DNA from: an uncultured Muribaculaceae bacterium
GTDB lineage: Bacteria; Bacteroidota; Bacteroidia; Bacteroidales; Muribaculaceae
Direction of reading: 5' to 3'
Assembly (NCBI GenBank): GCA_944321715.1
Contig: CALUMJ010000030.1
Span: forward strand, 1 to 33,487
Length of the DNA stretch: 33,487 nt
The notes under the pieces are model-generated. The model was not told where the DNA came from. It made no database searches and worked only from the letters and a program-made list of their open reading frames with translations. Below, one piece after another: positions 11,119-32,372 of this stretch; position 1 is the first letter of the stretch; every line of letters starts with the position of its first letter. The position numbers and the translations under genes are program-made.

Positions 11119-12906
11119 ATGAATCATATTAGGAATTTCTGCATAATAGCGCACATCGACCACGGCAAGAGTACGCTTGCCGACCGTCTGCTTGAGCGCA
11201 CAAAGACCGTAGTCGGCAAGGACATGCAAGACCAGGTGCTCGACGACATGGACTTGGAGCGCGAGCGTGGCATCACCATCAAAAGCCATGCCATACAGAT
11301 GGACTATGTGCACAATGGCGAGCGTTACGAGTTGAACCTGATTGACACTCCGGGGCATGTGGACTTCTCGTATGAGGTGTCGCGGTCGATTGCCGCATGC
11401 GAGGGCGCATTGCTCATTGTCGATGCGTCGCAAGGCATACAGGCGCAAACCATTTCAAACTTGTACATGGCAATCGACAACGGGCTTGAAATAATCCCTG
11501 TAATCAACAAGGTTGACCTCGACAGCGCGAAGCCCGACGAGGTTGAGGACCAGATTGTGGACTTGCTCGCATGCAAGCACGAAGAGATTATTCGTGCAAG
11601 CGGCAAGACCGGCATAGGTGTCGATGACATACTCAAAGCAATCGTGGAGCGCATTCCTGCGCCGCAGGGCGACCCCGCTGCGCCATTGCAGGCATTAATC
11701 TTCGACTCGGTTTTCAATTCGTTCCGTGGAATTATCGCATATTTCAAAATCGTGAACGGCACGCTGCGCAAAGACGACTTTGTAAAGTTTGTCAGCACCG
11801 GCAAGGAATACCATGCCGACGAGGTGGGAGTGCTGAAGCTCTCCATGTCGCCGCGCGATGAGTTGTCGGCTGGCGATGTGGGTTACATCATATCGGGTAT
11901 CAAAACCTCGAAAGAGGTGAAGGTGGGCGACACCATCACGCATGTTGCCAATCCGTGCAAAGATGCCATCGAGGGCTTCCAGGAGGTAAAGCCGATGGTG
12001 TTTGCCGGTGTTTACCCCATCGTCAACGAAGATTTTGAAAACTTGCGCTCGTCGCTTGAGAAGTTGCAGCTCAACGACGCTTCGCTCACATTCCAGCCCG
12101 AGTCGTCGGTGGCATTAGGATTTGGCTTCCGCTGCGGTTTCTTGGGGCTGCTGCACATGGAGATTGTGCAGGAACGCCTGAGCCGCGAATATAACATGGA
12201 GGTGATAACCACCGTGCCGAATGTTTCCTACAAGGTTTATGACAAGAAAGGAGGTTGCATCGAGGTGCATAACCCTGCCGGAATGCCCGACCCGACATAT
12301 ATCGACCATATCGAGGAGCCGTTCATACGCGCATCTATAATAACCACCACCGATTACATAGGCCCGATAATGACATTGTGCCTCGGCAAGCGCGGCGAAC
12401 TGGTGAAGCAGGACTATATTTCGGGCAACCGTATAGAACTTATATTCGATTTGCCGCTTGGCGAGATTGTAATTGATTTCTATGACAAATTGAAGAGCAT
12501 ATCGAAAGGGTATGCCTCGTTTGACTACCACATACACGACTTCCGCGAGTCGCGGCTCGTGAAGCTCGACATATTGCTCAACGGCGAGCCGGTGGACGCA
12601 CTCAGCACGCTGACGCACTTCGACAATGCAGCCACATTTGGCCGCCGAATGTGCGAGAAACTGAAAGAGCTAATCCCGCGCCAGCAGTTCGACATTGCCG
12701 TGCAGGCTGCAATCGGTGCCAAAATCATTGCCCGCGAAACCATCAAGGCTGTGCGCAAGGATGTGACGGCCAAGTGCTATGGCGGCGATGTGAGCCGCAA
12801 GCGCAAGCTGCTTGAGAAACAGAAGGCCGGCAAGAAGCGCATGAAGCAGATTGGGTCGGTCGAAGTTCCGCAAAAGGCATTCCTTGCCGTGTTGAAACTT
12901 GATTGA
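11119..12906 (+). CDS. lepA: Elongation factor 4 (LepA)
   Basis: Ribosome-associated translational GTPase that acts on stalled or mistranslocated ribosomes. At 595 residues it is full length for the family. G-domain motifs are intact: AHIDHGKST (11-19), DTPGH (76-80) and NKVD (130-133). The LepA-type C-terminal domain is present, with the basic [16 protein letters not shown] segment near the end. It is monocistronic as far as the sequence shows, with its own consensus promoter just upstream and about 60 bp to the next small frame. Ordinary core gene; identification is firm. Confidence 0.97.
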
Positions 12907-12967: not shown

Positions 12968-13156
12968 ATGTTAATTATAAAACGTATGCCTATGGGTAAA
13001 AATTCTACTCTATTAAAATCAGACCATAAAAACCAAGTTGAATGTGAAGCGAGGGTGAAAGCTTCAACTATAAACTTCATTAAACAATTTGTCCGTGCTT
13101 ATTCCTACGACAAGCGGTTGGCAAGTTGCGGATTAGGTGGTTTTATGGTCAATTGA
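12968..13156 (+). CDS. Small basic protein, unknown function
   Basis: Up to 62 residues; the real start may be the ATG at 12986 or 12992, giving 54-56 residues. The composition is protein-like (KASTINFIKQFVRAYSY, then a C-terminal GLGGFMVN) and resembles, from memory, short uncharacterised Bacteroidales proteins with an 'FIRQFAR.Y...LGGF..N' tail. I cannot verify this here. There is no signal peptide, membrane segment or Shine-Dalgarno sequence. It lies alone between lepA and the putative RNA gene. Confidence 0.5.
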   Translation: MLIIKRMPMGKNSTLLKSDHKNQVECEARVKASTINFIKQFVRAYSYDKRLASCGLGGFMVN

Positions 13157-13257
13157 ATTAAGGAAAAGGCTTGCTGCATAAGATGTTACAATCTGTAGTG
13201 TGGCAAGCCTGATTGTTATGCGACACGTTTTTTTGCAAGGAATATTTGGACGTAAAT

Positions 13258-13288
13258 ATTGTATATTGCAACAAAATATGTATCTTTG
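13258..13288 (+). promoter_or_regulatory. Consensus promoter of the putative RNA gene
   Basis: ATTG (13258-13261), 19 nt, TATCTTTG (13281-13288). The -7 element is a perfect TAnnTTTG and the spacing is exact. Transcription would start near 13292-13295, at the first base of the closing helix of the RNA. No open reading frame with protein character follows. Confidence 0.7.
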
Positions 13289-13291
13289 CAG

Positions 13292-13500
13292 CCTGTTATG
13301 TGGCCAAGGTTAGGCCTTGGCGGCTGGTGCGGCTCTGTGATTGGGCCGTGCCGATGTCGATGCCACGGAGGTGGTGTGCCACGGACTTCAATACCCCACA
13401 TGGGGCAATATGGCATCGCTCCATGCTCGGAGGCCACTGCGAAAATGGTGGGTGTGGAAAGTGTCGTAACGAGCAAGTAGGCATTTGTATAACATAATGT
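13292..13500 (+). ncRNA. Putative structured non-coding RNA, ~206 nt
   Basis: GC-rich island in an AT-rich spacer, starting right after a consensus promoter. Its ends pair (13294-13301 with 13492-13499, eight pairs, two G-U). Inside are several helices: 13303-13309/13315-13321 (GCCAAGG/CCTTGGC), 13326-13335/13343-13352 (ten pairs, three G-U wobbles), 13358-13365/13411-13418 (CGATGCCA/TGGCATCG, perfect), and nested in the last 13371-13374/13379-13382 and 13394-13397/13402-13405. Then come 13419-13422/13429-13432 and 13434-13438/13447-13451. G-U pairs in helices favour an RNA over a DNA palindrome. I do not recognise tmRNA, RNase P RNA, SRP RNA or a known riboswitch. A 6S-like or lineage-specific RNA is possible. 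No poly-T terminator is evident. Confidence 0.6.
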
Positions 13501-13586
13501 GGAATGAAAGTTCGCAATAATGGGTCTAAAATTGCACAAATCATGCAGATGTGTGCAGGAAAAGCCAATTTGGAACGTTAAAACTT

Positions 13587-13617
13587 TTCATATATGAATT
13601 AAAATTGCTTACTTTGT
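13587..13617 (+). promoter_or_regulatory. Promoter of acpP-fabF-rnc
   Basis: TTTC (13587-13590), 19 nt, TTACTTTG (13610-13617). Each element is one mismatch from the TTTG / TAnnTTTG consensus and the spacing is exact. It is about 52 nt upstream of the acpP ATG. Confidence 0.55.
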
Positions 13618-13669
13618 GCCGCGAATTTTTCTAATTATCCAAATTATAACTATTTAAAATTAAATCATT

Positions 13670-13903
13670 ATGTCAGAAATTGCAGAAAAGGTAAAAGCAA
13701 TAATTGTAGAAAAGCTTGGAGTAAATGAATCAGAAGTAACCCCCGAAGCAACATTTGCTCAAGATTTGGGCGCTGATTCGCTCGATACTGTAGAATTGAT
13801 TATGGAGTTTGAAAAACAATTCGGTATCGAAATTCCTGACGACAAGGCAGAAAGTATCGTAACTGTAGGAGATGCTATCTCGTACATCGAAGCAAACAAG
13901 TAA
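13670..13903 (+). CDS. acpP: Acyl carrier protein
   Basis: The 77-residue acidic carrier holds growing acyl chains on a 4'-phosphopantetheine arm in type II fatty acid synthesis. The attachment site is S37 in [10 protein letters not shown], followed by the recognition helix ([14 protein letters not shown]). Length and composition are normal. fabF begins 20 nt after the stop, the usual pairing. As common in Bacteroidetes, the upstream region is AT-rich without a Shine-Dalgarno sequence. Confidence 0.97.
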
Positions 13904-13923: not shown

Positions 13924-15186
13924 ATGGAGTTAAAAAGAGTTGTTGTAACAGGCTTGGGTGCGGTAACGCCTCTTGGCAACGACGTTGAAACCACATGGAA
14001 CAACGCCGTAGCAGGAGTTAGTGGTGCTGGGCCTATTACGCATTTCGACGCATCTCTGTTCAAGACTCAGTTTGCGTGCGAGGTGAAGAACTTCAATGGG
14101 GCCGATTTCTTCGACCGCAAGAAGTTGCGCACCCTCGACCTCTATTCCCAATATGCCCTTGTTGCAGCCCAACAGGCTGTCGAGGATTCGAAAATCGTAG
14201 CCGACGGAGTCGATGCCGACAACGTGGGTGTGATTTTCTCGTCGGGTATTGGAGGCTTGCACACATTTGAGGAGGAAGCTGGCTATTATGCCATGCATGC
14301 CGACCAGGGGCCAAAATACAATCCATTCTTCATTCCGAAGATGATTGCTGACATCGCCGCTGGCCACATTTCCATGCAATACAGCTTCCGGGGCCCCAAC
14401 TTCGGGATTGTATCGGCTTGTGCATCGTCAACCAATGCTTTGATTGACGCATTCAATTGCATCCGTTTAGGACAAGCCGTTGCCATGGTAAGTGGCGGTG
14501 CCGAAGCTGCCGTATATCCGGCAGGTGTAGGAGGCTTCAATTCGATGCATGCGCTTTCGACCCGCAACGACAGCCCGCAAACTGCTTCGCGCCCATTCAG
14601 TGGTTCGCGCGACGGCTTTGTAGTAGGCGAGGGTTCGGCCTGCTTGGTACTCGAAGAGCTTGAACATGCCAAGGCGCGCGGTGCCAAGATATATTGCGAG
14701 ATTGTCGGTGGCGGTATGTCGGCCGATGCCTATCATATTACAGCAAGCCATCCCGAAGGGCTTGGCGCAAAGCTGGTGATGAAGAGGGCTATTGCCGATG
14801 CTGGCCTTACTCCGGCCGATGTCGATTATATCAATGTGCATGGCACATCCACTCCTGTGGGCGACCTGTCGGAGGTTAAAGCCATCAAAGAGGTGTGGGG
14901 CGAAGATGCTTATCGCTTGAGCATCAGCTCTACAAAGTCGATGACTGGCCACTTGCTGGGCGCCACTGGCGCACTCGAAGTGTTGTTCTGTATCAAGGCC
15001 ATAACCGATGGTATAGTACCACCTACGATTAACCATGCAGATGACGACCTTGACCCGGAAATTGACTATAATTTGAACTTTACGTTTAATAAGGCGCAAA
15101 AACGTGATATTAACGTGGCTCTGTCCAACACATTCGGCTTCGGCGGACACAACGCCAGCATGATTGTGAAAAAATACAGCGAGTAA
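13924..15186 (+). CDS. fabF: 3-oxoacyl-ACP synthase II (KAS II)
   Basis: Condensing enzyme that elongates acyl-ACP with malonyl-ACP in fatty acid synthesis. The 420-residue product has the thiolase fold with the complete Cys-His-His triad: C166 in SACASST, H306 in NVHGTSTPVGD and H343 in KSMTGHLLGATG (K338 also present). The GFGGHNAS loop is at the C-terminus. It lies 20 nt after acpP and is followed 5 nt later by rnc, so the three are likely one operon. Confidence 0.96.
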   Translation: MELKRVVVTGLGAVTPLGNDVETTWNNAVAGVSGAGPITHFDASLFKTQFACEVKNFNGADFFDRKKLRTLDLYSQYALVAAQQAVEDSKIVADGVDADNVGVIFSSGIGGLHTFEEEAGYYAMHADQGPKYNPFFIPKMIADIAAGHISMQYSFRGPNFGIVSACASSTNALIDAFNCIRLGQAVAMVSGGAEAAVYPAGVGGFNSMHALSTRNDSPQTASRPFSGSRDGFVVGEGSACLVLEELEHAKARGAKIYCEIVGGGMSADAYHITASHPEGLGAKLVMKRAIADAGLTPADVDYINVHGTSTPVGDLSEVKAIKEVWGEDAYRLSISSTKSMTGHLLGATGALEVLFCIKAITDGIVPPTINHADDDLDPEIDYNLNFTFNKAQKRDINVALSNTFGFGGHNASMIVKKYSE

Positions 15187-15191
15187 TATCC

Positions 15192-16001
15192 GTGTCGCTT
15201 AACGATATCTTGTTCCGTATAAAGCTCCTTTTCCTCAAGGATAAGGAGCTTTATGCTTTTTGTTACAGGCTATTAGGGTTTGCACCGCGTAATATAGGCG
15301 TTTACCGGCTCGCTTTTGCGCATAGGTCGCAGTCGATAACCGTGTATGGGCATGGTAGGGGCAACAATGAAAGGCTTGAATACCTTGGCGATGCAGTGCT
15401 TGGCGCAATCGTTGCCGACATGTTGTACAAGATGTACCCTCGCCGCCGAGAAGGATTCCTCACCAATACTCGTTCCAAGATAGTGAAACGTGAAACGCTC
15501 TCTAAGATTGCGCAGAAGATGGGGCTTGACGAGGTGGTGCATCCTGTCATTAAGAACCATCCCCACAATACATACGTGTATGGTAACGCGCTCGAAGCAT
15601 TGGTTGGGGCGGTGTATATCGACCAAGGGTATGAGCGGTGCATGACTTTTGTAATCGACCGCATAATCAAGCCCTATATCGACATTCGCAGCATGGCGCA
15701 GACCGAATTGAATTTTAAGTCAAAATTGCTCGAATGGGGGCAAAAATATCGAGTGCCTATTGATTTCGAGTTGCTCGAAACCACTGTCGATGGTAGCAAT
15801 AATCAAGTGTTCCACTCGCTAATAACGATTTATGGGCGACCTGTGGGTGAAGCAACTGGTTATACTAAGAAAGAATCGCACCAGCTGGCCTCCAAGCAGG
15901 CCTTGCGCCGCATCAGCGAAGATGTGGAGTTGCGCGACGAGATACTAAAAAAGGCCGAAGAATCTGTTGCCGAAACAGAAGATGCTACTGGCATGGCTTA
16001 A
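15192..16001 (+). CDS. rnc: Ribonuclease III
   Basis: Double-strand-specific endoribonuclease that processes rRNA precursors and structured transcripts. At 269 residues it has an N-terminal RNase III domain with the signature NERLEYLGDAV (59-69) and the second metal-site helix GNALEALVGAVY (131-142). A dsRNA-binding domain follows (about 175-245), then an acidic tail. The start is GTG, 5 nt after the fabF stop; no ATG lies near enough to replace it. At the second site Asn132 stands where the E. coli enzyme has Asp114, while the Glu (E135) is kept. I believe Asn is usual in this phylum. Confidence 0.94.
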   Translation: MSLNDILFRIKLLFLKDKELYAFCYRLLGFAPRNIGVYRLAFAHRSQSITVYGHGRGNNERLEYLGDAVLGAIVADMLYKMYPRRREGFLTNTRSKIVKRETLSKIAQKMGLDEVVHPVIKNHPHNTYVYGNALEALVGAVYIDQGYERCMTFVIDRIIKPYIDIRSMAQTELNFKSKLLEWGQKYRVPIDFELLETTVDGSNNQVFHSLITIYGRPVGEATGYTKKESHQLASKQALRRISEDVELRDEILKKAEESVAETEDATGMA

Positions 16002-16123: not shown

Positions 16124-17035
16124 ATGGAGAATTTGATAAGATTTGACTGGGCGATGAAGCGTCTGCTTCGCGACAAGAGCAACTACGTGGTGCTTGAGGG
16201 CTTCTTGTCGGTACTTCTTGGCGAAGGCATTAAAATCGACCGCTTCCTTGAGAGCGAGTCGAACCAGGAGGACGCCATCGACAAGTTCAACCGTGCCGAC
16301 ATTCTTGCCGTGGATTCGCGTGGCCAGCTCGTCATCATCGAGGTGCAGAACAACCGCGAACTGAATTACTTCCACCGCATGCTATATGGCGTGTCGAAGA
16401 CCATAACGGAGTATATCAACCTCGGCGACGACTACAGCAAGGTGCGCAAGGTATATTCCATCAATATAGTGTATTTCGAGCTTGGGCAGGGGAAGGACTA
16501 CGTGTACCACGGGCGCAACGAGTTCCGTGGCCTGCACGGCGGCGACTTGCTGGAATTGTCGCCACGCCAGCAGGAGTTGTTCCGATGCAAGTATGCCGGC
16601 GATATCTTCCCCGAGTATTACGTGTTGAAGGTCAACGATTTCAACAGCGTAGCGAGGACTCCGCTCGACGAGTGGATAAGTTTCCTCAAGACAGGCCGAA
16701 TAGAAGCCACCGCTACGGCACAGGGGTTGGCCGAGGCTCGCGAGCGTCTGCGTGTTGATGCGATGCCCGAGTCGGAACGGCGGGCCTATATCCGCGACCT
16801 TGAGGCGAAGGCCTACCAGCAGAGTGTCATATCGTCGAGCTGGGACGACGGTCACACAGCCGGCAAGGAGGAGGGGCTCAAAGAGGGTCACGAGGAAGGG
16901 CTAAAAGAGGGCATGGAAAAAGGTGAGCGAAAAGCCACGCTCGAAATGGCTCGTAACCTGAAGCAGCTTGGCGTGCCAGTAGAAACGATAATGAAAAGCT
17001 CGGGGTTGACCGAAGAGGAAATAAGCCGATTGTGA
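16124..17035 (+). CDS. Rpn-family PD-(D/E)XK nuclease / putative transposase
   Basis: The 303-residue protein belongs to the Rpn (recombination-promoting nuclease, PDDEXK transposase-like) family. The N-terminus RFDWAMKRLLRDKSN and the catalytic core NRADILAVD (D59) and IIEVQNN (E73, Q75) match the family's D...ExQ active site. The Glu/Gly/Lys-rich segment near 245-270 (KEEGLKEGHEEGLKEG) and the C-terminal helix (LKQLGVPVETIMKSSGLTEEEI) are also typical. Other family members are metal-dependent DNA endonucleases that promote RecA-independent recombination; activity here is inferred. It stands alone after rnc. Its stop codon is followed after one base by a 314-bp inverted-repeat element. Confidence 0.88.
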   Translation: MENLIRFDWAMKRLLRDKSNYVVLEGFLSVLLGEGIKIDRFLESESNQEDAIDKFNRADILAVDSRGQLVIIEVQNNRELNYFHRMLYGVSKTITEYINLGDDYSKVRKVYSINIVYFELGQGKDYVYHGRNEFRGLHGGDLLELSPRQQELFRCKYAGDIFPEYYVLKVNDFNSVARTPLDEWISFLKTGRIEATATAQGLAEARERLRVDAMPESERRAYIRDLEAKAYQQSVISSSWDDGHTAGKEEGLKEGHEEGLKEGMEKGERKATLEMARNLKQLGVPVETIMKSSGLTEEEISRL

Positions 17036-32152: not shown

Positions 32153-32183
32153 GAAGTCAAAATGACCTATTCTCTCGGTTGGA

Positions 32184-32355
32184 GGTGTATCAAAATGTAG
32201 ATTTGTGCAATTTTGTAGGGACGCACGGCTCGTGCGTCCGCTGCGCAATTAGACACATATTCTATTAATTTACAGATGGTTAATTACGTCTTGCGGCACT
32301 CGGACGCACGAGCCGTGCGTCCCTACGAGGTGGGTCATGCCAATTTTGATACACC
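32184..32355 (-). mobile_element. MITE/BIME-like element, copy 4 (172 bp)
   Basis: Ends GGTGTATCAAAAT (32184) and ATTTTGATACACC (32343-32355) are perfect 13-bp inverted repeats. It contains the two inverted GTAG-GGACGCACG hairpin units. Its centre reads as the complement of the copy at 17476-17648 (CCGAGTGCCGCAAGAC and CTGTAAAT), so it is inserted in the opposite orientation. It fills the space between the secreted-protein gene and a convergent lipoprotein gene. Confidence 0.75.
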
Positions 32356-32372
32356 TTCGAACGGGAACGGGG

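Follow-up and report, generated by a model that had tools for sequence, protein, structure and literature searches.

A candidate structured leader RNA upstream of acpP, fabF and rnc in a genus of Muribaculaceae

Introduction

Ribonuclease III is described, in excerpts of PMC3386247, as controlling its own synthesis by cleavage of its own message in E. coli, S. coelicolor and S. aureus, the cleavage in S. aureus lying within the coding region. Closer to the organism studied here, a Bacteroides 6S RNA has been reported and B. thetaiotaomicron has been credited with 124 intergenic and 21 UTR-derived small RNA (sRNA) candidates, both according to parts of PMC7366714, whose main text mentions neither 'acpP' nor 'acyl carrier'. 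Among open-licence papers we found none on a small RNA and acpP in B. thetaiotaomicron and none on Muribaculaceae noncoding RNA and acyl carrier protein.

For the spacer between lepA and acpP in an uncultured Muribaculaceae bacterium, a promoter followed by a free-standing, multibranched RNA of ~206 nt had been predicted from the DNA letters. Our computational analysis of this locus and its relatives finds a candidate unlisted RNA element that would be of a known kind, namely a structured leader or a UTR-derived sRNA.

Results and Discussion

The window, by which we mean the whole analysed stretch of 33,487 nucleotides, corresponds to contig 30 of genome G000 (2.8 Mb in 88 contigs), and for comparison we used a genus set of nine genomes (G000–G008) that includes the sister species G007 of the same genus and two near-duplicates of each other, G004 and G006. 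In the window lepA (11119–12906) is the upstream neighbour of the spacer, which is followed on the forward strand by acpP for acyl carrier protein (13670–13903, NCBIfam match), fabF for beta-ketoacyl-ACP synthase II (13924–15186, TIGR03150) and rnc for ribonuclease III (15192–16001, TIGR02191), the last starting 5 bases behind fabF. The same order of fabF and rnc is seen in six of eight genus loci, the remaining two ending inside fabF or acpP. As lepA lies upstream of acpP only in G000 and G007 out of nine genus acpP loci, the slot holding the promoter and the RNA goes with acpP and not with lepA. From lepA to acpP the spacer contains a 56-aa frame, the distal promoter P1, the GC-rich stretch (the body), a 25-bp dyad and the proximal promoter P2. 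The frame (MPMGKN...LGGFMVN, 12986–13156, forward strand) is unlisted, shows 87.5% identity in G007 and has no NCBIfam or Pfam match. Two further observations concern the rest of the window. A gene for an Rpn-family PD-(D/E)XK nuclease/putative transposase follows directly 3' of rnc (16124–17035, forward strand), and at 32173–32366 we found a MITE- or REP-like nested inverted repeat with perfect 26-nt arms (32215–32240/32301–32326) within 24-nt arms of 83%; a window placed over it has a folding z of -9.6, the minimum among 120 windows.

P1 (13258–13288, forward strand) is of the Bacteroidetes type ATTG-N19-TATCTTTG, with ATTG at 13258–13261, a 19-base spacer and TATCTTTG at 13281–13288. The looser pattern TTG-N17-22-TAnnTTTG occurs five times on the plus and twice on the minus strand of the window, so that a lone match would mean little without conservation. 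We therefore rely on the genus, where a search of the slot from 100 to 600 nt upstream of acpP gave one TAnnTTTGC box in each of the nine genomes, placed 296–390 nt before the acpP ATG; the -33 region can be aligned in most of them and is weakest in G002. Between G000 and G007 the stretch 13245–13289 differs at 6/45 sites. The promoter is thus present as originally described and, judged by its sequence and the genus-wide box, is real; transcription would start near 13290–13293. In 24 acpP loci from other genera of the family, sampled from a set in which 85 further family genomes also had an acpP match, no TTTGC box was seen by eye between -450 and -150. One of these loci (L022, genome G052) has TATCTTTGTG at -236 from acpP, and in four (L037, L043, L044 and L045) a TTTGC box lies closer to the gene, at -94 to -98. 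In the G005 locus (L016) tandem units of ~75 bases containing GCAGCCTATTTTATGCAAA were noticed by eye immediately upstream of P1.

Between P1 and P2 lies the dyad TGCACA-N13-TGTGCA (13533–13557, forward strand), which has the same length in 9/9 genus genomes, being exact in five and one base off in four. It is also exact in 6 of 24 other acpP loci of the family, with varying middle letters, and four of the five genus genomes with the exact form have it only at acpP, G008 having one more site. From its sequence it looks like the operator of a regulator. P2 (TACTTTGTG, 13577–13622, forward strand) is present in all nine genus genomes and differs from G007 at only 2/46 sites; the standard acpP mRNA would start here with a short leader. 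Scanning the genome collection with the P2 sequence returned eight loci, apparently from species already in the genus set.

To judge the GC-rich stretch between the two promoters, we compared its substitution between G000 and G007 with that of its surroundings. Its 5' half (13290–13391, forward strand) differs at 11/102 sites and its 3' half (13392–13463, forward strand) is less conserved (18/72), and an unconstrained linker follows in which 34 of 61 sites differ (13464–13524, forward strand). Upstream of P1 (13158–13244) 37 of 86 aligned sites differ, and at the fourfold sites of acpP, fabF, rnc and the aligned part of lepA the count is 177/460, a sum that excludes the fourfold sites of the 56-aa frame (10/21). 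Relative to the fourfold sites both the 5' half (Fisher p 1.3e-8) and the whole body (29/174, p 8e-8) are clearly more conserved. Constraint above the neutral level and without codon rhythm, as expected for a selected noncoding RNA, is therefore found, and on the sequences of this one clean species pair the body is under purifying selection. The pair G006/G004 gives a similar picture, with 3/183 changes in the body against 71/343 at fourfold sites (p 3.5e-11) and 33/225 in the upstream spacer; as acpP shows 0/31 fourfold changes in this pair and the DNA between the start of the dyad and the end of the leader 0/136, the conservation of its body may reflect recent local recombination. These counts bear on the simplest alternative, in which P1 does no more than add a promoter and the body is a functionless spacer whose high GC content is due to chance. 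Ordinary folding and an extreme turnover of the body across the genus (both below) would agree with such a spacer, but in G000/G007 the body is more conserved than the linker, the upstream spacer and the fourfold sites, and we consider this explanation improbable.

That no frame looks like protein, as had been claimed, is borne out by the G000/G007 substitutions before the first indel, which fall 5/6/7 over the three codon positions and thus give no protein signal. Open frames of up to 65 codons between the start and acpP in G000, or a 94-codon frame beginning at a TTG upstream of P1, might suggest that the DNA after P1 encodes a leader peptide or a small protein that evolves fast. Besides the flat codon positions, frames are shifted by the indels that separate G007 from G000, the 60-aa frame of G000 and the 66-aa frame of G005 have no Pfam match at E up to 0.1, and the frames that look alike across the genus appear by their start positions (read by eye) to cross the conserved DNA of P2 and its leader, G001 having no such match on the plus strand. 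Inside the body clear shared frames are confined to G000/G007 and the nearly identical G004/G006, as their DNA similarity predicts, and a few weaker matches were seen between minus-strand frames, such as those of G001 to frames of G005 and of G008 (E about 1e-9). Taken together, we regard a coding function as very improbable.

The helices that had been proposed are indeed present in G000, where they include hairpins 1 and 2 and the perfect helix described below. Hairpin 1 (13303–13321; 8 pairs, 3-nt loop) carries three substitutions in G007 (13311–13313) that are exactly its loop. Hairpin 2 (13325–13353), which contains G-U wobbles, has 11 pairs in G000 of which 8 are kept in G007, where a U-G became C-G and the outermost pair as well as two adjacent inner pairs were lost, the inner ones turning into mismatches together. 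All seven pairs of hairpin 3 (13360–13377) are kept, one G-U having become G-C, and hairpin 4 (13394–13405) keeps three of its four pairs while three of four loop bases changed; all four lie on the forward strand. Hairpin 3 competes with the perfect 8-bp helix CGATGCCA/TGGCATCG of the original prediction, which exists in G000 but retains only 5/8 standard pairs in G007. Similarly, the predicted closing stem (13294–13301/13492–13499) has its eight pairs in G000, and in the corresponding, poorly aligned columns of G007 three of them break, four stay and one is changed on both sides, leaving at most two neighbouring pairs. The stem is thus weakened in the sole species with an alignable body, and the closed multibranched shape is not established.

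An unusual stability of the RNA was not found either. For 13290–13505 the fold has a z of -1.7 with 9/200 shuffles as good, and the z of -2.2 for the 206-nt fold is equalled or beaten by 21 of 120 other windows of the stretch. The 5' 103 nt reach -2.5 in G000 and -1.5 in G007, and over the nine slot RNAs of the genus z runs from -2.5 to +1.2, with G008 at -0.2, G006 at 0.0 and G003 at +1.2. By these folding models the stability of the single sequences is ordinary. The pattern of substitution is more telling: in 16 tests that placed the substitutions at random or rotated them along the body, only 0–11 of 200 trials per test reached the joint (alifold) energy of G000 and G007, and column shuffles, in which dinucleotides are not kept, gave an alifold z of -5.0 with 0/200 as good. 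The substitutions thus spare the joint pairing, and some pairing is probably under selection. Counting broken pairs of the single-sequence folds is often no better than chance, as such counts were matched or bettered in 0–77/200 rotated and 0–67/200 random trials; in the G000 fold 20 of 74 pairs break in G007. Changes on both sides of a pair affect 3/74 pairs of the G000 fold, 1/66 of the G007 fold and 1/57 of the alifold structure, and none of the 32 pairs in hairpins 1–4 between G000 and G007, so that the compensatory changes anticipated for the local helices did not appear in the two alignable sequences.

In agreement with the original prediction, no known RNA family was recognised. Rfam gave no match at the gathering threshold over the window or in loci L009–L012, and with E up to 10 the region returned three chance-level, far-sub-threshold matches in each of two runs. 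Bacteroidales-1 RNA (RF01693) was considered as an identity and rejected, since its sole match in G000 sits elsewhere (C58:7930–8116, 122.5 bits). This family itself was found above its cut-off in 9/9 genus genomes, 15/16 other genomes of the family and 1/15 of the order among those searched. The 6S RNA model (RF00013) has no match in G000 and none in 61 relatives, while 5 of 14 control genomes do match; given the 6S RNA that parts of PMC7366714 report for Bacteroides, this model is blind in this group.

Searches with the body itself led to G007 and hardly beyond. Within its own genome no other copy rises above chance (the runner-up has E 0.05 and spans 25 bases), and a DNA search of 99 genomes matched five including G000, of which G007 aligned over 206/248 bases and G003, G004 and G006 over just 29–42 bases at the promoter. 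A covariance model built from G000 and G007 found the body in only these two of 40 genomes, the next matches (E 0.26 and 0.96) not being credible, and when run on the acpP loci of the remaining seven genomes of the genus, together with four additional loci, it gave a single chance match outside the slot (E 0.7). The expected conservation in relatives therefore holds for G007, with its selected body, and fails for the seven other genus genomes, in which no homologue is detectable and the bodies differ from those of G000 and G007. What recurs genus-wide is the slot, with AGCCTG as the first bases in 6/9. The 5'-end pattern TANNTTTGCAGCCTGWTAWG occurs in 4 of 99 family genomes (G000, G001, G006 and G025), and as the copy in G025 stands, by eye, before an apparent tRNA, the start sequence of the body is unspecific.

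No run of at least five T occurs in G000 from 13290 to 13625, and a script allowing loops of 3–9 detected no terminator-like site, so the hairpin followed by a T run that marks an intrinsically terminated sRNA is lacking in G000. The T-run count is the safer of the two tests, because the script passed over a terminator-like hairpin with a longer loop that is visible by eye before P1 in G007. The eight other genus genomes do have runs of at least five T around P2, and in G005 a single terminator-like site precedes P2. An RNA end near 13499, as predicted, is not supported, since conservation ends at about 13463 and the T run is missing; with the closing stem weakened in G007, no intrinsic terminator and the body undetected in seven genus genomes, a free-standing RNA of ~206 nt is not supported either.

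A trans-acting sRNA of 175–240 nt could still arise from P1 if it were released by processing or by Rho-dependent termination in the linker, and could pair with target mRNAs through a single-stranded GGACUUCAA, or AAGGAC in other genomes. The drop of G007 conservation at about 13463 and its return at P2 would suit such a product, against which the lack of a T run in the G000 slot before the leader of P2 has to be set, and many sRNA candidates are on record for B. thetaiotaomicron. After dropping G007 and G004 as near-copies, AAGGAC lies at body offset 63–65 in four of seven distinct bodies (G001, G003, G005 and G006), and none of 100 shuffles reached four such agreements within 2 nt, a test that is inflated by the kinship of the sequences. 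Without regard to position the sharing is not significant, AAGGACTT being exact in 3/7 and 51/300 shuffles reaching that share, and AAGGAC is absent in G008, unmatched in G002 and at a different offset in G000/G007. There the CACGGACUUCAA segment (13380–13391, forward strand), with GGAC at offset 93, is possibly the lineage form of the motif despite this offset. The predicted accessibility of GGAC is mixed as well, with a mean unpaired probability of 0.15–0.73 over the listed sites. On balance we see the trans-acting sRNA as a tentative possibility.

With no evident stop for transcription ahead of acpP in G000, a long leader is the simplest product to expect from P1. Our preferred reading, to which we give an even chance, is a P1-driven, structured 5' leader of ~380 nt for acpP-fabF-rnc that acts in cis on the P1 transcript. 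P1 would start a second, long transcript that runs into acpP, with acpP, fabF and rnc co-transcribed, and its leader would hold a lineage-specific structured RNA domain (about 13290–13463) affecting in cis the fate of this transcript; a shorter RNA may be cut from it. The conserved slot, the purifying selection without a coding signal, the substitutions that spare pairing, the nearby rnc and the missing terminator are all consistent with such a leader, while the 20 broken pairs, the scarcity of two-sided changes, the ordinary stability, the terminator-like site of G005 and the bodies of 7/9 genus genomes, which are different and in part hardly structured, speak against it.

The most specific hypothesis for how such a leader could work is a cis-acting RNase III substrate, suggested by the self-control of RNase III in three bacteria and by rnc behind fabF. 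Its hairpins would be cleaved by RNase III, the level of which would feed back on the P1 transcript, and this most likely mechanism would explain why across the genus pairing is selected and sequence little. Gene order and spacing fit a leader with rnc downstream, for which we infer both the leader and the co-transcription. Against the RNase III step, the local hairpins reach 11 pairs at most, which is short for an RNase III substrate. Going further, the slot might drive, throughout the genus, leaders in which the sequence is replaced and the pairing kept, forming with RNase III a feedback sensor that ties the level of this enzyme to fatty-acid synthesis and leaves the sequence almost free to evolve; we think this extension unlikely.

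Conclusion

In summary, the acpP-fabF-rnc operon, whose genes are of an essential type, would gain an RNA element that is under selection and so far unlisted, in a part of the gut Bacteroidales that has received little study. The locus also illustrates how such an element escapes covariance searches, its promoter and slot being kept and its body not, and with rnc inside the operon the idea of an RNase III feedback is directly testable. Among known systems, Bacteroidales-1 RNA is likewise structured, spans about 180 positions and belongs to Bacteroidales, but it has no match in the window and G000 holds its own copy on another contig (C58). 6S RNA is similar in length (187 positions) and forms one long hairpin, whereas the RNA of the acpP slot is predicted as several short ones. 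With those sRNAs of B. thetaiotaomicron that come from intergenic regions and 5' UTRs, compared here as a class, it shares the TAnnTTTG promoter and a noncoding body but differs in that no terminator is found at the acpP slot. The rncO leader of E. coli and the absB leader of Streptomyces, to which we liken it by description, are also structured RNAs upstream of an operon holding rnc; in G000, however, rnc comes third after acpP and fabF, and a second promoter lies in between.
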